Assembly (NCBI GenBank): GCA_937930305.1
Contig: CALGLE010000021.1
Coordinates: 1-64,000 of the forward strand
Length of the DNA: 64,000 nt
Source of the DNA: an uncultured Granulosicoccaceae bacterium
GTDB lineage: Bacteria; Pseudomonadota; Gammaproteobacteria; Granulosicoccales; Granulosicoccaceae
Direction: 5' to 3'
The number at the start of each line of letters is the position of its first letter. Position 1 is the stretch's first letter. Shown in pieces: positions 17,882 through 51,444 of the stretch. Both the position numbers and the translations under genes were made by a program. The notes below the pieces were generated by a model. It saw only the letters and a program-made list of their open reading frames with translations, had not been told where the DNA came from and did not search any database.

Positions 17882-18448
17882 ATGATGAACCTAATACCCC
17901 AGGAGTATAAGAAAACTCAACGCGGCGTTGGCATCGTTGAAGTGCTGGTTGCGTTGGTCGTGGTATCGCTTGGCGTGTTAGGCATGGCCAGCTTGCAGTT
18001 GACGGGCATGCAACACAGCACAGGCAGTTATAACCGGTCTAAAGCTTTGCTCTATGCTGAGAACATGGCTACACGCATGCGCACTAATCGCGCGGCAATT
18101 GATGCGTTTTTATTTGATAACTTTGATTCCAGCGGTGGGAGTTGTGCAGCGCGGCCAGCACCCTACTGTCAGGCCTCCAGTTCAGGGCCGGCACAAGCGT
18201 GTGATGCTGCAGAGCTTGCAGCATTTGATACCTTCAGTATTTCATGTGGTGACTGGGGTAACGGAGGTGCAGAAGATGGTGTTGTGGGTTCGTTGCCGAA
18301 TGGGCAGTTAACCATCAATTGCGATGCAGACCCGTGCTTACCTTCATCGACTTACACCATTAATGTGAGTTGGACAGAAGGTCAGAGAGTAACTTCCGAT
18401 ATGAACGATACTGTGACCCGCCGAGTGCAGATGAGGATGCGGCCATGA
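17882..18448 (+). CDS. pilV: Type IV minor pilin PilV
   Basis: 188 residues, starting two bases after fimT. The prepilin motif is QRG-VGIVEVLVALVVVSLGVLGMASLQLTGMQ, with cleavage after Gly15 and Glu at +5. The phrase LGVLGMASLQ is typical of PilV. The soluble part is rich in cysteine and glycine, probably disulfide bonded. With PilW and PilX it forms the tip complex that primes pilus assembly. Its stop overlaps the pilW start (ATGA). Confidence 0.92.
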   Translation: MMNLIPQEYKKTQRGVGIVEVLVALVVVSLGVLGMASLQLTGMQHSTGSYNRSKALLYAENMATRMRTNRAAIDAFLFDNFDSSGGSCAARPAPYCQASSSGPAQACDAAELAAFDTFSISCGDWGNGGAEDGVVGSLPNGQLTINCDADPCLPSSTYTINVSWTEGQRVTSDMNDTVTRRVQMRMRP

Positions 18449-19140
18449 GAATGACGTACCCTCAAAGCCGTCGGCAAACTGGATTCACACTCATAGAGAT
18501 GATGATTGCTCTGATCCTTGGCTTAATTGTTATCGCCGCTGTTATCAATATGTACATCGGATCATCTCGATCTTCAAAATTTACGCAAGGCTTGCAGACG
18601 ATGCAAGAGAACGGTCGCTATGGCGTGTCGGTTCTGCAGCGTGGATTTCGCTTAGCCGGTTATGCACCTGATACTCGAGTAGATCCGGTGATCATTGATA
18701 AAAGCAGTGCAGATTCTGTGACGGTTGTGATGCGTCGTGGTTTCGACTGTAACGGCAACGACACCACGGCAGCACCCACGCCCGGGTTCGCTGAGAATAC
18801 TTACGCTTGGGATGCAACGAACAATACCATCACCTGCGAGGGCAACTCAGCCGGTGCTGTTGCTATGCCTATTGTTGAAGGAGTTGACGGGTTTCGTGTT
18901 TTGTACGCCTTGGATTCGGATGATGATCAGATTCCCGAGACCTATGTGTCTTACGATGCGTCAATTCCACCTCGCCAAATTGTTGGAATCCGATTTGCGA
19001 TGCTAGTTAACTCTGGTAAGCCGATTCGTTCACGCCCTAGTGCGGAAGAACACGTTGTGCTGGATGATGTGATTTCTAAAAATGATCGATACGCACGACA
19101 TGTGTTTAGCAGCACTGTGCTGTTAAGAAACCGATTGTAG
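18445..19140 (+). CDS. pilW: Type IV minor pilin PilW
   Basis: 231 residues from ATG 18445; a start at 18370 inside pilV would bury the signal. The prepilin motif is RQTG-FTLIEMMIALILGLIVIAAVINMY, cleaved after Gly13, with Glu at +5. QTMQENGRYGVSVLQRGFRLAGY is a PilW hallmark. It probably bridges PilX and PilV in the tip complex. It ends three bases before pilX. Confidence 0.92.
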   Translation: MRMTYPQSRRQTGFTLIEMMIALILGLIVIAAVINMYIGSSRSSKFTQGLQTMQENGRYGVSVLQRGFRLAGYAPDTRVDPVIIDKSSADSVTVVMRRGFDCNGNDTTAAPTPGFAENTYAWDATNNTITCEGNSAGAVAMPIVEGVDGFRVLYALDSDDDQIPETYVSYDASIPPRQIVGIRFAMLVNSGKPIRSRPSAEEHVVLDDVISKNDRYARHVFSSTVLLRNRL

Positions 19141-19143
19141 GGG

Positions 19144-19707
19144 ATGGTTATGAATGCTTATTACTACCATCGACAACGCGGTGTCGCTTTAGCCATCAGT
19201 TTGATCTTACTTCTGGCCTTAACCATTTTGGGTGTAGCAACGCTAACATCTACTCGATTTCAAGAGCAGATCACCAGTAATGCACAACAAAAGGCTGTGT
19301 CTTTTGAAGCGGCGGAGTCTGCAATCAATTCTGTGATAACTGACCCTGACTTAATCATTGAAACTATAAAAAATGTACCCGTGGGGCAGTACAACGATCC
19401 AGATCCGGTATTTCCAGCCGGCTACGATACATTACTGTCCACAAGTTTTGATCAGTCAAACGATCTTGGGGTGAGTTTGGATATTACTTCCAGTGTGTCG
19501 GTGCAGTATTGCGGCGAAAGGGCGTTGACAGTTGGAATGGACTTGACGGGTGATAAATCCAAAACCCGATTAGTTGGAATGACCTTCGATATTAATGGAC
19601 AAGCGCAAATTGCGAACAGCAATGCTAGTTCTGATCACATACAACGCGGCAGCCTGCCTCGGCCTGAAACAGAGCGCACGGGCAATTGTGTAACGCCCAC
19701 TCCTTAA
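19144..19707 (+). CDS. pilX: Type IV minor pilin PilX
   Basis: 187 residues. The leader ends RQRG-VALAISLILLLALTILGVATLTSTRFQEQ; as usual for PilX there is no Glu at +5. ITSNAQQKAVSFEAAESAIN is also typical of the family. It is part of the priming complex. The start may be 19144 or 19150. In most relatives the next gene is the large pilY1 adhesin; here only 65 bases separate pilX from pilE, so pilY1 is absent from the locus. Confidence 0.9.
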   Translation: MVMNAYYYHRQRGVALAISLILLLALTILGVATLTSTRFQEQITSNAQQKAVSFEAAESAINSVITDPDLIIETIKNVPVGQYNDPDPVFPAGYDTLLSTSFDQSNDLGVSLDITSSVSVQYCGERALTVGMDLTGDKSKTRLVGMTFDINGQAQIANSNASSDHIQRGSLPRPETERTGNCVTPTP

Positions 19708-19772
19708 TGAAGAAAGCCTGTTTTACATCATCTCATACATGAATTGAAAATTACTTAAAAGTGAATACAAGC

Positions 19773-20177
19773 ATGAAGGCACAAAAAGGATTTACCCTAA
19801 TCGAAGTGATGATTGTTGTCGCCATTTTAGGCATCATCTTGGCGGTTGCCGTGCCCAGCTATTCAAGCTTTATGCAAAAGACTCGTCGAGCGGATGCCAT
19901 CACCATATTAAGTGAGGTCGCCGGTGAGCAGCAACGATTCATCTCAGAGCAAAATCGATACGCAACCGATATGACAGAAATGGGTTATCCGAATGACCCA
20001 ATGACATCAGAAGAAGGCTATTACACAATTAGTGTGGCTAACCCCACGCCAACTAGTTATGTTCTTACGGCAACCCCAGTTGTTGGTGAAGCGCAGGAAA
20101 AAGATGCTGAGTGTGGAGCATTTACCCTGAATTCTGGTGGAGTCAAAGATGCCGATGGTGGTATTGACTGCTGGTAA
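19773..20177 (+). CDS. pilE: PilE-type pilin
   Basis: 134 residues from ATG 19773; a GTG at 19761 in the same frame would lengthen the leader. The prepilin motif is KAQKG-FTLIEVMIVVAILGIILAVAVPSY with Glu at +5. The C-terminus has two cysteines about 17 apart (ECGAF...DCW), the disulfide loop of type IVa pilins. In Pseudomonas-type clusters PilE is the last minor pilin. It belongs to the operon, or has its own promoter in the 65-base gap. It could be the major pilin in this organism, but its place argues for a minor one. Confidence 0.9.
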   Translation: MKAQKGFTLIEVMIVVAILGIILAVAVPSYSSFMQKTRRADAITILSEVAGEQQRFISEQNRYATDMTEMGYPNDPMTSEEGYYTISVANPTPTSYVLTATPVVGEAQEKDAECGAFTLNSGGVKDADGGIDCW

Positions 20178-23064: not shown

Positions 23065-23697
23065 TTACCAATCGATCGTCATGGGTGGAGTAACCGTAAG
23101 TTCACCATCCGAGAAAGCTTTTAGGCAGTTGATCGTCATGCGGGCTGTCGCACCCCACAATACGGCGCCTTGTTGTTCCTTGTAAACAATTACTGGGTGG
23201 CGAGCATTGGATTGGGTGTCCAGGGTGTTTCGCGCGCGCAATGAAAAGTTGGAACGGTTACAAAGCCATTGCACTGGTAGCGATAAGGTACGGGCGACTT
23301 CATTAGATTGTAGGGTTAAGGCTTGTGGCCAATCGACTACGGCAACCACGGGGGTCACGGCATAGTCACTTACAGTGACATAAGCGGAAAGCGAACTAAT
23401 GACGTTGATGTGTTTTGCATGAATTCCGATCTCTTCTTCGGTTTCTCGTAAGGCAGTTTGAATCAAAGAGCTATCGGTTTCCTCATGCCGACCACCGGGA
23501 AACGCGACCTGGCCACTGTGTCGATCTTTAGGGTTTGATGCGCGAACAATAAACAGCAAGTGCCACGCATCATCGACCCGGATAAGGGGAACTAATACAG
23601 CCGCTTTTTTTAACCCGGATGCTTTGGGTAGGTCACTGTTTCTAAATAGCCCTTCCTCAGAATGAACAACAACTGGAAAATCATCTGCAATGCTCAA
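23065..23697 (-). CDS. Nudix hydrolase, CoA pyrophosphatase type
   Basis: 210 residues with a complete Nudix box (GGRHEETDSSLIQTALRETEEEIGI) preceded by SNPKDRHSGQVAFPGG. That context is typical of NudL/CoA-diphosphatase proteins, which split coenzyme A or related nucleotides. It is the last gene of a three-gene operon, overlapping the radical SAM gene by four bases (ATGA). The operon partners act on nucleosides or nucleic acids, so a damaged-nucleotide substrate is also possible. Confidence 0.9.
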   Translation of the reverse strand: MSIADDFPVVVHSEEGLFRNSDLPKASGLKKAAVLVPLIRVDDAWHLLFIVRASNPKDRHSGQVAFPGGRHEETDSSLIQTALRETEEEIGIHAKHINVISSLSAYVTVSDYAVTPVVAVVDWPQALTLQSNEVARTLSLPVQWLCNRSNFSLRARNTLDTQSNARHPVIVYKEQQGAVLWGATARMTINCLKAFSDGELTVTPPMTIDW

Positions 23698-24851
23698 GTG
23701 GAGGGTTCTCTCGATGGCTGGCCTAGGGCTAGATCGTGCAACGTGGGTTCCTGCTTGCGTGCGTCAGAGTTGTCGACTGTTCCTGCCAATGCAGATACCG
23801 GTGTTAATGCAAGCTTTGATGTTGATTTATGCTCCTCAACCGGATTTACTGGGTTACTGATGGAGACGCAAGGGAAGTATTGATTTTTGTTGATCCGCTT
23901 GAGCAGTTCTGTTTCGCAAAAACCGAGTAGGTCCTGTTCAATGTTGCTGGGGTAACTCACCATCGCGGTTTTGGTTTGCATGGGTTGGGCGAGTAAGGAT
24001 GAATCGGGGTACAAGCGAATCATGCGTTTGTAGAAAGGTTTGGGTAAACGGAAAGGACCAAGGCTAACGGAATGAATGGCATCAGCATCCAGTGCGTTGA
24101 ACGTTTGTTCGAACAATTCAGTGTAGAGAGATTGGTAATTGTCAGAGAATAAAATAGGGTCAAATCGCAGGCCAACGCTCCAGCCGGCATTCTGTAGATC
24201 TTGCAGCGCTTGAATGCGCTTTTTTAATGTAGGCGCTTTGTGTTCGTGCTTAGCGGCCACCGACTCGGGCGATAAGCTGTAGGCAACAACCGCATTTGGA
24301 ACGGGTTCGCGTTTTAATAAGCTGCGTATTTGTGTGCTCTTGGTGCGTAATTCCAAATAGGCATTGGGCAAGGTGTTGAAATGATCCAACACATCGTCGG
24401 TGAATTCGGTTATCGGGTTTAAAGCCAGCGAGTCGCAGTCGTATCCTGAAAAAAACCAGCTCGGTTCTTCTGGTTTTTCATTTGCGGTACTTTTTATATC
24501 GTCAAAAAAATCATCAAAATTTGCGAATACCACATAGTTGCCGGATCGGTACATGCCCTGAAGAAAACAATATCGACAGTCGTACACGCAGTTCAGCATG
24601 TGGGAAAAATAGAAGTTTCGTTCGCCACCGATGTGATAACCCGGTGGGGTGGGTAAGACTCGCCGGCCGTGCTTCTTGGCTAGGATGAGAGCGGGCTGCT
24701 GCTTTTGTTGGCGAAAATCTTGTGCGGTTTGGTTGAATACATCTCCGTAGCGATCAATGCTGATGCGACGCGATTTTGGAAATCTGGCGATGATGGCTTG
24801 CGCTCTGGGGTGCGATTCAATATCGCGCTCTATGTAAAGCGTGCTGATCAT
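23694..24851 (-). CDS. Spore-photolyase-like radical SAM protein
   Basis: 385 residues. The radical SAM cluster motif is CVYDCRYC (Cys88, 92, 95), followed by FLQGMYRSGNYVVFANFDDF. The downstream core (FFSGYDCDSLALNPITEFTDDVLDHF..., LELRTKSTQI..., VAYSLSPESVAAKHEHKAPTLKKRIQALQDLQNAGW) is that of the spore photoproduct lyase family. Classical members repair thymine dimers in spore DNA, but this organism should not form spores and many Gram-negative relatives are uncharacterised. It is middle gene of an operon: 12 bases after the phosphorylase gene and overlapping the Nudix gene. Confidence 0.87.
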   Translation of the reverse strand: MISTLYIERDIESHPRAQAIIARFPKSRRISIDRYGDVFNQTAQDFRQQKQQPALILAKKHGRRVLPTPPGYHIGGERNFYFSHMLNCVYDCRYCFLQGMYRSGNYVVFANFDDFFDDIKSTANEKPEEPSWFFSGYDCDSLALNPITEFTDDVLDHFNTLPNAYLELRTKSTQIRSLLKREPVPNAVVAYSLSPESVAAKHEHKAPTLKKRIQALQDLQNAGWSVGLRFDPILFSDNYQSLYTELFEQTFNALDADAIHSVSLGPFRLPKPFYKRMIRLYPDSSLLAQPMQTKTAMVSYPSNIEQDLLGFCETELLKRINKNQYFPCVSISNPVNPVEEHKSTSKLALTPVSALAGTVDNSDARKQEPTLHDLALGQPSREPST

Positions 24852-24863
24852 GGGCTAAGAGTA

Positions 24864-25685
24864 TCAATAAATAACGCTAAGGCTGGTCAGTTCGTTTTCT
24901 AATTTTTGTAATAACTGTTGGCTAGAATCTAGCCTTCCCATTTGTTCGATGTGAGGGAGATGCCCATGCGTGGCCAAGTAGCGCTCCAGCAGTCGACGCA
25001 GCTGATGGCTTTGTGTAACGCTGTGATGGCACACACTTGTTATGTGGTCTGTCAAAGATTGTACGTTTGCTCGAAAATCAACCACTTCATGGCGATGCTT
25101 GTTGGTGGATAAGCATTCGATTAATGCTTCAACAGTGGGTAGCGTATTCAGCATCCAAGGTGTGACGTTCTTCACGCAAAAGTCTTCTACCGAATGGCTA
25201 GGGTTGTCTGAAATGACTTTAACGGCGTGTATTCTGGATAAGTCGGTGTGTTGCGTCGCCACCTTGGCCACTGATGCGGCTTCCATGTCATAAACACAAT
25301 CGTTGCGGTAGTCTCGACAAGGCTCTGTGACCGTTACCACTTCGCAGTGATTCGTTGCGTCGATGACGCTAGAGGCAGGTAAATGCGGGTACCAACGTCG
25401 CTGAGAAACTTGATCTAACAAGCTGCTTGCGATGATCACGTCTCCTAATTCTCTATCTCCGCCAGCCACGCCCACGTTAATGAATGCGTCGATTCCGACT
25501 TGTACGGACAACAATGACTCAATTCTTGCTGCCGCACGTTGCGCACCCATGCCCGTTTGCACTAGGCAAACGCCGTCACCCATCCAGGCGCTCAAGCCGC
25601 GTTGAGGGAATGCTTTAAGATTGAACGCTTCAACCAGAGGTTTGGCTTCGGCGGTCATTGCGGTAACTAGGCAGATCAGAGACAT
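24864..25685 (-). CDS. Nucleoside phosphorylase / nucleosidase superfamily protein
   Basis: 273 residues. The N-terminal 190 or so match the purine nucleoside phosphorylase/MTA-SAH nucleosidase fold: LICLVTAMTAEAKPLVEAF, VQTGMGAQRAAARI, FINVGVAGG, VYDMEAASVAKVA and KVISDNPSH. The conserved Glu and Asp of the active site lie in the last two. About 80 further C-terminal residues are helical and unassigned. It cleaves a nucleoside or modified nucleoside. First gene of the operon with the radical SAM and Nudix genes. Confidence 0.85.
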   Translation of the reverse strand: MSLICLVTAMTAEAKPLVEAFNLKAFPQRGLSAWMGDGVCLVQTGMGAQRAAARIESLLSVQVGIDAFINVGVAGGDRELGDVIIASSLLDQVSQRRWYPHLPASSVIDATNHCEVVTVTEPCRDYRNDCVYDMEAASVAKVATQHTDLSRIHAVKVISDNPSHSVEDFCVKNVTPWMLNTLPTVEALIECLSTNKHRHEVVDFRANVQSLTDHITSVCHHSVTQSHQLRRLLERYLATHGHLPHIEQMGRLDSSQQLLQKLENELTSLSVIY

Positions 25686-25773: not shown

Positions 25774-26097
25774 ATGTTGATTTCTAATTTGGAATTTTTG
25801 CCTGATCGCAAGGTGGTTCGCCATATTGGCTTGGTGCAGGGCAGTTCGGTTCGATCCAAGCACGTGGGCCGGGACATGATGGCCGGCTTGAAAAATATAT
25901 TTGGTGGCGAATTGAAGGGTTACACCGAGCTGCTTCATGATTCCCGTGTGGAGGCTACCGAGCGCATGAAAGAACAGGCCGCTTCTATTGGGGCTAATGC
26001 TGTTTTGAATGTGCGATTTAGCACCTCTAGCATTGCGGCCGGGGCTGCTGAAATATTCGTCTACGGCACGGCCGTGGAGCTGGCGGATCATGTTTAA
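25774..26097 (+). CDS. YbjQ-family protein (UPF0145)
   Basis: 107 residues, the whole length of the YbjQ family: MLISNLEFLPDRKVVRHIGLVQGSSVRSKHVGRD, IFGGELKGYTELLHDSRVEATERMKEQA, IGANAVLNVRF, YGTAV. Sometimes called heavy-metal-binding domain proteins, but function is not established; they form pentamers. It overlaps the next gene, a second YbjQ protein. Confidence 0.92.
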   Translation: MLISNLEFLPDRKVVRHIGLVQGSSVRSKHVGRDMMAGLKNIFGGELKGYTELLHDSRVEATERMKEQAASIGANAVLNVRFSTSSIAAGAAEIFVYGTAVELADHV

Positions 26098-26539
26098 TCT
26101 CGTTGTAATCTGCATATTACTGCTGGTCGGATTGGTGTTCGGCAAGATGGCTGAAAAGAAACATTTAAAGTCGATAATTAAGAGAGAGAATCAACTCAAT
26201 GCTCTGCCAGCCATTGCCAGCCGGTATCCGCCTTCAGGTGACAATGTTGGCCCGTACCGACAGTTACTGGTCACCGGAAACGTCGTCATTGCCTCGGACT
26301 ACTTTAAAACATTCTTGTCCGGCTTGATCAATATTTTTGGTGGACGTGTGACCCCATTCGAATCATTACTTGATCGTGCACGTCGTGAGGCGATGTTACG
26401 AATGAAAGCGTCAGCGGATGCGGTGAATGCTGAATTTGTGTTTAATGTCAAGTACCAAACAGCGACGATTCAACAAAAAGGCTCGGGTGCGATTGAAGTG
26501 CTGGCCTACGGTACCGCGTTGATTCCAGAGCGCCGCTGA
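26090..26539 (+). CDS. Membrane-anchored YbjQ-family protein
   Basis: 149 residues from ATG 26090, which overlaps the stop of the first ybjQ gene by 8 bases. An earlier in-frame start at 26009 is inside that gene. The N-terminal helix (MFNLVVICILLLVGLVFGKMAEKK) anchors it to the inner membrane. The rest is a YbjQ domain (VTGNVVIASDYFKTFLSGLINIFGGRVTPFESLLDRARREAMLRM...). It is a paralogue of its neighbour and lies eight bases ahead of an M48 peptidase gene. Hetero-oligomer formation is plausible. Confidence 0.88.
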   Translation: MFNLVVICILLLVGLVFGKMAEKKHLKSIIKRENQLNALPAIASRYPPSGDNVGPYRQLLVTGNVVIASDYFKTFLSGLINIFGGRVTPFESLLDRARREAMLRMKASADAVNAEFVFNVKYQTATIQQKGSGAIEVLAYGTALIPERR

Positions 26540-26547
26540 AACGCACA

Positions 26548-27423
26548 ATGGAATACGAAAATCGTCAACCCACCGAAGGTATCAATGTCACGCATGAGAA
26601 CCCGGTAAAGAAGTTACTGGTGTATACGGTAGCCACTGTCATATTGCTGATGACGGTATTTTTTGTATTCAGTTTTTTAGGTGGATGGGCGGCTCGATCC
26701 ATTTCGTTTTCCACTGAAGTAAAAATCATGGAATCGGTCGGTGGGGATGTCGAGAAAATGATGGGCGTCGATTCCTCCGGCCCTGACTTTCTTGAACGAA
26801 AGGCTGCGCTAAATGACTTGGCTGTTCGAGTGATGGCCAATATGGATATCCCAGATTCCATGCACATTACTGTGCACTATGTGGATGACGATGTGTTTAA
26901 TGCATTCGCCACCCTGGGTGGCCATGTGTTCTTTTATCGTGGCTTGATTGAGCAGATGCCGCATGAAAACGCATTAGCGATGGTCATGGCACACGAGATC
27001 GCCCATGAAATTCATCGTGATCCTATCAGTGGCTTAGGTGGTGGCCTAACCGCAAAAATTATATTGTCCGCAGCTTTTGGAACTTCGGGTATTGCAGGAG
27101 ACTTATCCGCCATCACCAGTGCTGTAGGTGGGGCGAACTTTACTCGGCGAATGGAAACACGAGCAGATCACACAGCGATTACTGCAGTGAACCGCTTGTA
27201 TGGTCACGTAGCAGGAGCGGATGCCTTGTTTAAGCTGTTGGATAAAAAAGCCGGCGATGGGGATGAGCCCGGTTGGGCCGAGGCGTTTCTACGAACTCAT
27301 CCTTTGAATCGGAAGCGGGTGCAAGCCATTCACGAAACGGCAAAAGAGAATGGTTGGGAAACCACGGGGGATACGATCGAGCTGCCAGAGGCATTGAAAT
27401 TTGAGCCTGTCGCGGCGGATTGA
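26548..27423 (+). CDS. M48-family zinc metallopeptidase
   Basis: 291 residues: an N-terminal membrane helix (about 27-49), then a periplasmic peptidase domain with HEIAH (VMAHEIAHEIHRD) and the third ligand Glu in METRADHTAI. The ending FLRTHPLNRKRVQAIHE is typical of M48. It probably degrades misfolded envelope proteins, like BepA/YcaL. It is the third gene of the YbjQ-YbjQ-M48 operon, with an eight-base gap, so the YbjQ proteins may regulate or scaffold it. Confidence 0.92.
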   Translation: MEYENRQPTEGINVTHENPVKKLLVYTVATVILLMTVFFVFSFLGGWAARSISFSTEVKIMESVGGDVEKMMGVDSSGPDFLERKAALNDLAVRVMANMDIPDSMHITVHYVDDDVFNAFATLGGHVFFYRGLIEQMPHENALAMVMAHEIAHEIHRDPISGLGGGLTAKIILSAAFGTSGIAGDLSAITSAVGGANFTRRMETRADHTAITAVNRLYGHVAGADALFKLLDKKAGDGDEPGWAEAFLRTHPLNRKRVQAIHETAKENGWETTGDTIELPEALKFEPVAAD

Positions 27424-27445: not shown

Positions 27446-28363
27446 TTAGTGAGTGTTCTCACACCACTGCTTGATTAGAAAGTGAGCGATGGAATCAGAA
27501 CGTGGTAATTGGTGTGTAAAATTTTCATCGCCCCACGTGCCAAAACTGTTTAAATCTTCCCGTGTAAACCATTGAGCATCTTCAATCTCTTGCTCGTCTA
27601 ATGTGATAGCGGTTGTTGTTGCTTCCGACTTAAATCCCAACATAATCGAGCGGGGAAATGGCCAGGGTTGTGAAGTGATGTACTTTACGTTTTCCACCGA
27701 CACACCGACCTCTTCAAATACTTCTCGCACAACGGCTTGTTCCAAGCTTTCTCCGGATTCAACAAAACCTGCCAAAGTTGAATACATGCCCGGTGGCCAT
27801 ACGGGGCTGCGACCCAATAGACAGCGTTCCACCCCTTGTTCATCAATGTGTGTTACCAGCATAATGACAGCAGGATCTGTTCGCGGAAATTCTAACTGGC
27901 CGCAATCGGTGTTGGAGCACTGTTTAACATGACCACCTTGAGTGTTATCCAGTGCAACACCGCAAGCGCTACAAAAATTAGTGCGGCTGTGCCAATGGGT
28001 CAGCCCTTTGGCGTAGATGAGTAAAGCGCCATCATCGTCGTTGATGCGCATACCGATTTTGCGTAAGTCTTGAAATTCTGAAGCTGAGGGTGGCTCTGTA
28101 GCCAGAGCATCGTTGTCGTCTAGTGATAATGCAAACCACGGAATATCGCCTGTGGTGCCAAGAAAGATGGCATCACGGAATTGCCAGGCTGCTTGCACAG
28201 GCATCCATGTGAGTTCAGGCGATTCGGTATCATGGCTGACTAGGCATTTGCCCTGATGCAGGGGTAGCACCCTAGCGGTGGGATCGTTCCACATTTGAAC
28301 AAGCATTGCTTGGTTTTTTCGAAGATGGTCCTGACGATTGATGGGATGTTGGCTAATAAACAT
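27446..28363 (-). CDS. nudC: NAD(+)/NADH diphosphatase NudC
   Basis: 305 residues. A zinc ribbon (FCSACG...CSNTDCG) is followed by EFPRTDPAVIMLV. The Nudix box GFVESGESLEQAVVREVFEEVGV and the NudC-specific SQPWPFPRSIML follow. It hydrolyses NADH and removes NAD caps from RNA. Length is normal (E. coli 257, longer forms common). It is transcribed alone. Confidence 0.95.
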   Translation of the reverse strand: MFISQHPINRQDHLRKNQAMLVQMWNDPTARVLPLHQGKCLVSHDTESPELTWMPVQAAWQFRDAIFLGTTGDIPWFALSLDDNDALATEPPSASEFQDLRKIGMRINDDDGALLIYAKGLTHWHSRTNFCSACGVALDNTQGGHVKQCSNTDCGQLEFPRTDPAVIMLVTHIDEQGVERCLLGRSPVWPPGMYSTLAGFVESGESLEQAVVREVFEEVGVSVENVKYITSQPWPFPRSIMLGFKSEATTTAITLDEQEIEDAQWFTREDLNSFGTWGDENFTHQLPRSDSIAHFLIKQWCENTH

Positions 28364-50595: not shown

Positions 50596-51444
50596 CTACG
50601 CAGTATAACGGGTTAACCACCGAGAATAACGTTGACGCAGTGAGGCGACTTCAGCGGTTCGGCCCCGTTTCATTGCGCCCGCTGAATACACAGAAAATTT
50701 CTCCACTAACATCTGCACAGCGGCGTGTTCGTCACTCTCGTTGAGCACGTTAGCCAGTAATATTTTTTCCAGTGCCACCAGACGAAAGCGATCCATAGCC
50801 ATAAATTTTCGTGACAGTTGATCGGCATGGCCACCGTGTTTGATGACCAACGGGGCATCGCAATAAGCCACGGGTTCTCGTGAGGTCAGCCGCAACCAAA
50901 AATCATAGTCTTCGCAGGCGGGAAGGTCTTCATCGAAATAACCAATATCGGTGAAGACATCACGGTGAATTAACGCCGAAGAAGGTGAAATTGCGCAAAG
51001 TGGCAAACAGTGCTGAAAAATCCTGCCGCCGCGTTTTTCATGTCGATGGCGTTGATTAACACGCTTACCGTTGCGTATCCAGTGTTCATCGCTATGGCAA
51101 AGGCGTAAATTATTGTCATTGTGCAGTTCGCGAAGTTGTGCTTCGAGTTTACCTGGGTACCAAGCATCGTCAGAATCCAGTAGTGCAATCCATTCACCTT
51201 GCGAGGATTCGATGCCACGATTTCTGGCATGAGATACACCGTGATTAGATTGCCGATAGTGTTTGACATCCGGGAAGTTTGCTTTTAAAAACTCTCCGGT
51301 GTTATCGGTTGATCCGTCATCAATAACGATAATTTCAAGCGGCGTAATGCTCTGTTCTAGCACAGAGTCCAATGCACGCGCCAAAGTATGGCAACGGTTG
51401 TACGTAGGAATAACGACGCTGATGGAATCCTTCACTGGCATCAC
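50596..51444 (-). CDS. GT2 family glycosyltransferase
   Basis: 282 residues. The N-terminal GT-A domain has VVIPTYNRCHTLARALDSVLEQS, IDDGSTDNTGEFL and LLDSDDAW (nucleotide-sugar and metal binding). The acceptor part shows EDYDFWLRL. A typical polysaccharide or glycoprotein sugar transferase, acceptor unknown. No membrane helix. First gene of a pair with the DUF6164 protein. Confidence 0.9.
   Translation of the reverse strand: MMPVKDSISVVIPTYNRCHTLARALDSVLEQSITPLEIIVIDDGSTDNTGEFLKANFPDVKHYRQSNHGVSHARNRGIESSQGEWIALLDSDDAWYPGKLEAQLRELHNDNNLRLCHSDEHWIRNGKRVNQRHRHEKRGGRIFQHCLPLCAISPSSALIHRDVFTDIGYFDEDLPACEDYDFWLRLTSREPVAYCDAPLVIKHGGHADQLSRKFMAMDRFRLVALEKILLANVLNESDEHAAVQMLVEKFSVYSAGAMKRGRTAEVASLRQRYSRWLTRYTA

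Follow-up and report, generated by a model that had tools for sequence, protein, structure and literature searches.

In a 64,000-nucleotide stretch of DNA from an uncultured Granulosicoccaceae bacterium (the whole stretch is referred to here as the window), two adjacent genes belong to a unit that, by sequence comparison, is conserved as an adenine-nucleosidase-fold protein and a radical SAM enzyme (rSAM) with the fold of spore photoproduct lyase (SPL), accompanied by a family-2 glycosyltransferase (GT2) and, in most cases, an SDR. Nucleosidase, rSAM and GT2, usually with a carbonyl reductase, almost certainly constitute one system, because the genes co-occur, share operons and are joined in two gene fusions. 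The pathway is widely shared among bacteria, appears undescribed and probably serves to make a small molecule, not to repair damaged nucleotides. Proteins of non-spore-formers that are annotated as SPL thereby gain a specific candidate function other than DNA repair, and the named partner genes make the substrate and product of the module searchable.

Gene order and co-occurrence

The locus comprises three open reading frames, all on the minus strand: a PNP-superfamily adenine-type nucleosidase (positions 24864–25685, 273 amino acids), the SPL-fold rSAM (23694–24851, 385 amino acids) and a Nudix hydrolase (23065–23697, 210 amino acids, with a TTG start). Their packing is tight, with 12 bases from the end of the nucleosidase gene to the start of the rSAM gene and a 4-base overlap between the rSAM stop and the Nudix gene. 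A preliminary description had proposed that the three genes are used together, in clearing or recovering damaged or modified nucleotides. Joint use survives for the nucleosidase–rSAM pair but not for the Nudix gene, which lies directly downstream of rSAM in only 4 of 108 non-redundant loci, all from the window's own clade (besides the window genome, three close relatives with the same 4-base junction); on this count the trio was rejected as a functional unit, absence of the trio from other genomes being an outcome that the preliminary description had itself named as refuting. In other Granulosicoccaceae the gene order is nucleosidase–rSAM–SDR–GNAT–Nudix, and because these genomes keep the SDR and GNAT genes in between, the Nudix gene came to adjoin rSAM through loss of both. 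Judged by gene order, it is a neighbour by local deletion and no part of the module. The protein is NudL/CoA-pyrophosphatase-like: it matches PF00293, its closest model is the NudL CoA pyrophosphatase PRK10707 (109.2 bits, below the cut-off of 134), and its nearest solved sequences are the CoA diphosphatases NUDT7 and a bacterial CoA pyrophosphatase.

Among 369 gammaproteobacterial genomes, rSAM was found in 65, GT2 in 59 and the nucleosidase in 58, and every genome with either of the latter two is nested within the rSAM set (Fisher p about 1e-60, uncorrected for phylogeny); GT2 presence was called at a gap in E from 1e-96 to 1e-52. All three occur together in 29 of the 34 families with an rSAM match. 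The nucleosidase gene is directly upstream of rSAM in 56 of the 108 loci and in every family-level locus examined. It shares an operon with rSAM in 42 of 58 cases and with GT2 in 41 of 54; the three genes are consecutive in 28 genomes, and in 13 a GT2–nucleosidase operon is accompanied by an rSAM elsewhere. Eight genomes whose rSAM has no adjacent nucleosidase encode one at another position. In methanotrophs (Methylomonas or Methylobacter), rSAM–SDR is found at loci L072 and L092 and the nucleosidase at L217 and L223. In Fusobacterium the nucleosidase is fused to rSAM and an SDR gene is next to the fusion, with no GT2 seen beside it; in subgroup 3 the nucleosidase is fused to GT2, and rSAM lies beside an aldo/keto reductase (AKR). 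One genus (loci L136 and L148) has, between GT2 and rSAM, a nucleosidase that apparently lacks its catalytic half. A sample of phyla beyond Gammaproteobacteria yielded weak partial matches at most, no relative was found in viral contigs, and the anti-phage defence search with PADLOC matched nothing except, weakly, the Nudix gene.

The GT2 gene of the window genome is unlinked to the pair and 25 kb away (50596–51444, minus strand, 282 amino acids). Its product carries the conserved signature, is 52% identical to the GT2 from the GT2–nucleosidase–rSAM operon of a family member and matches the GT2 profile, whose 11 rows include the window protein itself, with an E of 1.6e-136. GT2 is missing from a whole genus with nucleosidase–rSAM (G101, G232 and G335) and from the Methylococcales-like G283; given these absences, glycosylation is not universal. 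An SDR gene, with an invariant catalytic S-Y-K, follows directly 3′ in 84 of the 108 loci and is absent from nine rSAM-free control genomes. It is missing from about a dozen rSAM-positive genomes besides the window genome, which has many other SDRs.

Predicted structures and active sites

The name nucleoside phosphorylase, given in the preliminary description, fits the superfamily (PF01048, 57.8 bits; cut-off 25.1), but from its residues, which agree with those of hydrolytic adenine nucleosidases, and from its closest structures the predicted enzyme is better named a nucleosidase. The best structural matches of its AF2 model (pLDDT 94) are all MTA/SAH nucleosidases and futalosine hydrolase (Z 22–23). 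E13 (codon 25647–25649, minus strand) aligns with E12 of E. coli MTAN, the water-activating Glu, and D160 (codon 25206–25208, minus strand) with D197, the purine N7 acid; both are invariant in 61 sequences, as are E135 and S159, and the catalytic Glu and Asp of the adenine-nucleosidase fold are thus present. MTAN (MtnN) is therefore alike in fold and in the equivalents of E12, E174 and D197. It differs in that the module protein scores far below the curated cut-off (PRK05584, 30.9 against 169 bits), co-occurs with one rSAM and follows its catalytic domain (residues 1–195) with an extra helical C-terminal domain (residues 196–273; 24867–25100, minus strand; from the predicted structure and alignment). 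This domain is retained in the Fusobacterium fusion and missing in subgroup 2, the matches of which end at about model position 200. Scores are likewise below the cut-offs of TIGR03664 (36 against 124.7 bits) and TIGR03468 (28.8 against 187.1 bits).

The rSAM consists of a conserved core (residues 1–330) and a low-confidence tail (336–385). It matches the SPL family PF20903 (70.5 bits; cut-off 27) and falls under the cut-offs of PF04055, TIGR04070 (84.4 against 400 bits) and TIGR03886 (78.9 against 437.55 bits); membership in the last two was ruled out by score and tree. The CxxxCxxC cluster motif at residues 88–95 (C88-x3-C92-x2-C95; 24567–24590, minus strand) is invariant in 53- and 59-sequence alignments. 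For the structure predictions, rows from plasmid records were left out. The AF2 model (pLDDT 84.6) has the SPL fold over its full length (Z 34, rmsd 2.5 Å, 322 residues), with the next radical SAM enzyme at Z 15 and MqnE at Z 13.6; HpnH is not in the match list, an absence that is no evidence.

The position of the SPL catalytic Cys (Gt C140/Bs C141) is occupied by Tyr, Gln or Glu in all 33 of 33 clade members, by alignment Y137 in the window protein (codon 24441–24443, minus strand). C139, at Gt S142, is common, not universal, and by analogy with the SPL of Clostridium, in which the Cys is at another place (PMC5368176), a displaced hydrogen-donor Cys may exist in rSAM. The relay Tyr of SPL (Bs Y99/Gt Y98) is Phe in the window protein and in every row shown for the main group and subgroup 3, Ser or Thr in subgroup 2 and Tyr only in Fusobacterium; the catalytic roles of these Cys and Tyr residues have been described (PMC3742179).

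SplB (TIGR04070/PF20903; PDB 4FHC–4FHG and 4K9R) shares with rSAM the whole-length fold (322 of 340 residues), the cluster motif and, flanked by the second and third cysteines of the cluster, an invariant Tyr (Gt Y96), but the two are only ~17% identical and have different gene partners, and rSAM falls in a separate clade of the tree (100/98). The TIGR03886 'spore photoproduct lyase family proteins' of Deinococcus and Alphaproteobacteria are, like rSAM, SPL-like radical SAM enzymes in non-spore-formers; the window organism, too, is not a known spore former, as had been pointed out. In the tree, however, the TIGR03886 proteins group with SPL, outside the module clade, and their neighbours in the records examined are helicase, partition and other unrelated genes, never nucleosidase, GT2 or SDR. 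None of 274 gammaproteobacterial genomes passed the TIGR03886 cut-off.

Candidate chemistry and alternatives

By analogy with HpnH/HpnG (PMC12583986) and ArsS (PMC12159101), rSAM would transfer an adenosyl group and the nucleosidase would then remove the adenine, a chemistry to which we give about an even chance. The rSAM would cleave SAM, and the 5′-deoxyadenosyl radical would add to an acceptor; the nucleosidase would take adenine off the adenosylated product to leave a 5-substituted ribose; the SDR or AKR would reduce (or oxidise) the exposed sugar carbonyl; and GT2 would glycosylate the product. In the window genome, which has lost the SDR gene, the third step would be skipped or taken over by another SDR. 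The genetic coupling of rSAM to an adenine-type nucleosidase, by co-occurrence, operons and fusion, is as in HpnH-, MqnE- and ArsS-type pathways. It counts against adenosylation that, to our knowledge, the sole characterised SPL-fold enzyme abstracts hydrogen and transfers no adenosyl group. The full proposal, in which an SPL-fold adenosyltransferase acts with the nucleosidase, SDR or AKR, and GT2 to make a new ribose-derived glycosylated metabolite or lipid in many Gammaproteobacteria and Fusobacterium, is put forward tentatively, as somewhat short of probable.

The nucleosidase might instead dispose of a by-product: if rSAM catalysed some other radical reaction that frees 5′-deoxyadenosine, a dedicated nucleosidase would avert product inhibition and the SDR would reduce 5-deoxyribose. 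MTAN-type enzymes act on 5′-deoxyadenosine, which needs scavenging, and reduction is known to yield 5-deoxyribitol (PMC6302742). On present evidence 5′-deoxyadenosine could be an equally good substrate of the nucleosidase, the fold and residues of which fit, and the SDR could reduce 5-deoxyribose; a fusion to rSAM would place the nucleosidase at the source, and genome G000 has no MTAN match, only an MTI/MTA phosphorylase and a long PF01048 protein. However, Fusobacterium has the fusion despite encoding a true MTAN (271 bits; cut-off 169), the nucleosidase tracks one rSAM and not the 11 other rSAM matches of G000, and disposal offers no explanation for GT2, which is nearly always present, shows as tight a co-occurrence as the nucleosidase does and, in subgroup 3, is joined with it in one fusion. 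We regard disposal as a serious but rather unlikely explanation.

It is unlikely, to a further degree, that a nucleotide-sugar or purine nucleoside loses hydrogen to rSAM, with rearrangement, epimerisation or C–C cleavage as the result, and that nucleosidase, reductase and GT2 process the altered product. Recognition of a nucleoside-like substrate and hydrogen abstraction are indeed features of SPL-fold enzymes (PMC3742179), and sugars are substrates of both the nucleosidase and GT2, but the hydrogen-donor residues of SPL are not retained in rSAM, and the nucleoside substrate is itself a supposition.

The original suggestion, that rSAM, nucleosidase and Nudix hydrolase act together to repair or recover nucleotides that are modified or damaged by UV, now seems very improbable. 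The full-length SPL fold, the adjacency of all three genes in the window and the DNA-repair neighbours of other SplB-like families (PMC3765255, PMC4929162) speak for it. Against it, the catalytic Cys is absent and the second relay Tyr, Y98, is Phe (residue roles in PMC3742179), the Nudix linkage is confined to four close genomes with a protein nearest to CoA pyrophosphatases, the genes that constantly accompany rSAM are not repair genes but those for GT2 and a carbonyl reductase (SDR), and SPL acts on SP, a pyrimidine lesion, while the nucleosidase belongs to the adenine-releasing type. Finally, adjacency is broken in Methylococcales and subgroup 2, but that the genes are neighbours without shared function is scarcely credible when three gene sets are perfectly nested across the 369 genomes, two fusions arose independently and gene order is conserved in another phylum.

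Relation to known pathways

We found no described pathway with this gene set, in agreement with the preliminary description, in a literature search that subscription papers mostly fell outside. Three known systems resemble the proposed adenosylation and depurination.

Arsenosugar synthesis combines adenosylation by a radical SAM enzyme, ArsS, with a GT2 of a related group (TIGR04283). ArsS is unmatched, however, no arsenic genes were noticed at the module loci, and the pathway itself was rejected, as the module GT2 scores 67–74 bits against TIGR04283 (cut-off 182) and is closer to the TuaG, EpsD and WcaA models.

The futalosine pathway to menaquinone pairs radical SAM adenosylation by MqnE with an adenine/hypoxanthine nucleosidase, MqnB, as proposed for the module. 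The folds closest to the nucleosidase include that of futalosine hydrolase (Z 22.7), and the weak matches of rSAM include MqnE, but MqnE is a far poorer match than SPL, the TIGR03664 score is low and the pathway has no GT2.

Hopanoid synthesis by HpnH and HpnG, with a reductase and the glycosyltransferase HpnI, follows the same logic of a radical SAM enzyme, an adenine-removing PNP-superfamily protein, ribosyl reduction and glycosylation. HpnH is unmatched by rSAM, however, and the HpnG score of the nucleosidase is 29 bits, well under the cut-off of 187. We know of no hopanoids in Fusobacterium, which carries the module, and with the low HpnG score the hopanoid pathway itself was rejected. The first three steps of the proposed chemistry would nevertheless parallel those of HpnH/HpnG, MqnE/MqnB and ArsS, with an SPL-fold rSAM instead, and would, if true, add another case, independent in structure, in which radical adenosylation followed by depurination lets SAM donate a ribose.

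The nucleosidase–radical SAM pair and its surroundings

The three minus-strand genes of the preliminary description lie where it placed them in this 4.2-Mb Granulosicoccaceae metagenome-assembled genome (MAG), whose closest named relatives are uncultured members of that family: a nucleosidase-like gene (24864-25685; Pfam PF01048), a gene for a radical SAM enzyme with the fold of spore photoproduct lyase (SPL), here rSAM (23694-24851; PF20903), that starts 12 bases beyond it, and a Nudix gene (23065-23697; TTG start; PF00293) that overlaps the rSAM stop codon. We fetched the rSAM locus from 29 same-family relatives. In the window, and in all relatives with a readable contig and tblastn result, the nucleosidase gene lies directly upstream of rSAM, separated from it by -4 to 45 bases; among these same-family loci, a Nudix gene directly follows rSAM only in the window and its three closest relatives. 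Most other Granulosicoccaceae have an SDR carbonyl reductase after rSAM, and seven of these have the order nucleosidase, rSAM, SDR, GNAT acetyltransferase, Nudix, from which we infer that the Nudix gene was already downstream and came to adjoin rSAM through loss of SDR and GNAT. Of 108 non-redundant loci, 56 have the nucleosidase immediately before rSAM; the gene immediately after rSAM is SDR in 84 and Nudix in 4. The suggested trio therefore does not survive the neighbourhood survey: the Nudix protein, whose nearest kin are CoA pyrophosphatases, is a bystander.

A search at E 1e-40 found no copy of the specific SDR in the window genome or its three closest relatives, nor in about ten other rSAM genomes and nine rSAM-free control genomes. 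The rSAM of the window clade has a low-confidence C-terminal tail of 30-55 residues (residues 331-385; window 23694-23860), absent from relatives that retain SDR, which is possibly a scar of the SDR–GNAT deletion. Nearby are a second Nudix gene (27446-28363), clearly the NAD+ diphosphatase NudC (228 bits versus a cut-off of 158), an M48-type peptidase gene (26548-27423) adjoining two similar, tandem YbjQ-like small-protein genes (25774-26539) divergent from the nucleosidase gene and, upstream of the region, a cluster of type IV pilin-like and PilX/PilW-like minor pilin genes (18370-20177).

A glycosyltransferase and gene fusions

A family-2 glycosyltransferase (GT2) sits upstream of the nucleosidase in many Gammaproteobacteria; the orthologue of the window genome, with a strongly conserved signature, is at 50596-51444 in the same window. 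Profiles run against one set of 369 gammaproteobacterial genomes detected rSAM in 65, the nucleosidase in 58 and GT2 in 59 (where E values jump clearly from 1e-96 to 1e-52). All nucleosidase and all GT2 genomes fall inside the 65 rSAM genomes (Fisher p near 1e-60, ignoring shared ancestry), and the three occur together in 29 of the 34 families with an rSAM match. Seven rSAM genomes lack a strong nucleosidase match: three have it fused to GT2, two carry a decayed copy, placed between GT2 and rSAM, and the remaining two are an 82% complete MAG and a genome with a weak partial match. Nucleosidase and rSAM are adjacent in 42/58 genomes, GT2 and nucleosidase in 41/54, and all three are consecutive in 28; in eight genomes, including six named methanotrophs, the nucleosidase gene is not beside rSAM but at another site.

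Fusobacterium vincentii encodes the nucleosidase and rSAM in one 623-residue open reading frame, directly followed by an SDR of the same subfamily (L210:5104-6975, in a 2.1-Mb record named plasmid pSB055A that is chromosome-like by size). In a second, diverged rSAM subgroup (about 411-477 residues), rSAM co-occurs with a GT2–nucleosidase–SDR operon, which in one genome it adjoins on the opposite strand. In a third, rSAM lies beside an aldo/keto reductase, and a nucleosidase–GT2 fusion of about 495 residues is encoded elsewhere; the other rSAM flank at three such loci (L271, L272 and L273, in genomes G110, G237 and G339) is a weakly ParB/Noc-like protein with no Pfam match. Fusion partners of the nucleosidase are thus rSAM in one case and GT2 in another, and the fourth place is filled by either of two unrelated families of carbonyl reductase. 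The pairing noted initially holds up, as part of a wider conserved module, for which we found no match among curated families and no description in the literature searched.

Folds and active-site residues

Residues 1-195 of the nucleosidase model (pLDDT 94) match the adenine nucleosidases MTAN and futalosine hydrolase at Z 22-23; the remaining residues, about 78, form an additional helical C-terminal domain. All 61 sequences compared share E13, E135, S159 and D160; from MTAN, we take D160 to mark purine rather than pyrimidine nucleosides. At two loci (L136:815-1498 and L148:536-1498), the nucleosidase between GT2 and rSAM apparently keeps mainly the helical domain, and these remnants suggest a non-catalytic role for it, perhaps docking to rSAM. 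The main alternative is that the protein is a dedicated 5'-deoxyadenosine nucleosidase (PMC6302742), which would account for its link to rSAM but leaves GT2 unexplained; moreover, Fusobacterium retains the fusion alongside a true MTAN. The SDR keeps the Ser, Tyr, Lys and Asn of active SDRs, and its invariant Arg would be typical of NADPH use.

The rSAM model (pLDDT 84.6, core mostly above 90) aligns with SPL from end to end at Z 34, with the next radical SAM enzymes at Z 15. A maximum-likelihood tree splits module rSAMs from SPL and the SPL family protein TIGR03886 at 100/98; the placement of Fusobacterium is uncertain owing to its long branch. In SPL, C141 (Bs numbering) is the H donor and Y99 belongs to the relay (PMC3742179), whereas module rSAMs have Tyr, Gln or Glu at the C141 position (33/33) and, Fusobacterium excepted, Phe or Ser/Thr at the Y99 position. 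As one SPL carries its Cys at another site (PMC5368176), these residues argue strongly, not finally, against spore photoproduct repair, and the proposed clearing or recovery of damaged nucleotides is not borne out.

Proposed chemistry

That these genes form one system is well supported by their co-occurrence, operons and fusions, to which the observations on predicted folds and residues are added. By analogy, it probably uses SAM as a ribose donor: rSAM would transfer the adenosyl group, the nucleosidase would remove adenine as HpnG does, the reductase would act on the ribosyl product and GT2 would glycosylate as HpnI does. In hopanoid synthesis, HpnH adds a 5'-deoxyadenosyl radical and HpnG takes off the adenine, after which come reduction of the ribosyl product and glycosylation by HpnI (PMC12583986); for arsenosugars, ArsS adenosylates arsenic (PMC12159101). 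The module shares its make-up, a radical SAM enzyme with an adenine nucleosidase, a carbonyl reductase and a glycosyltransferase, with known routes in which SAM is the ribose donor, and on this match we propose the same logic with an SPL-fold enzyme.
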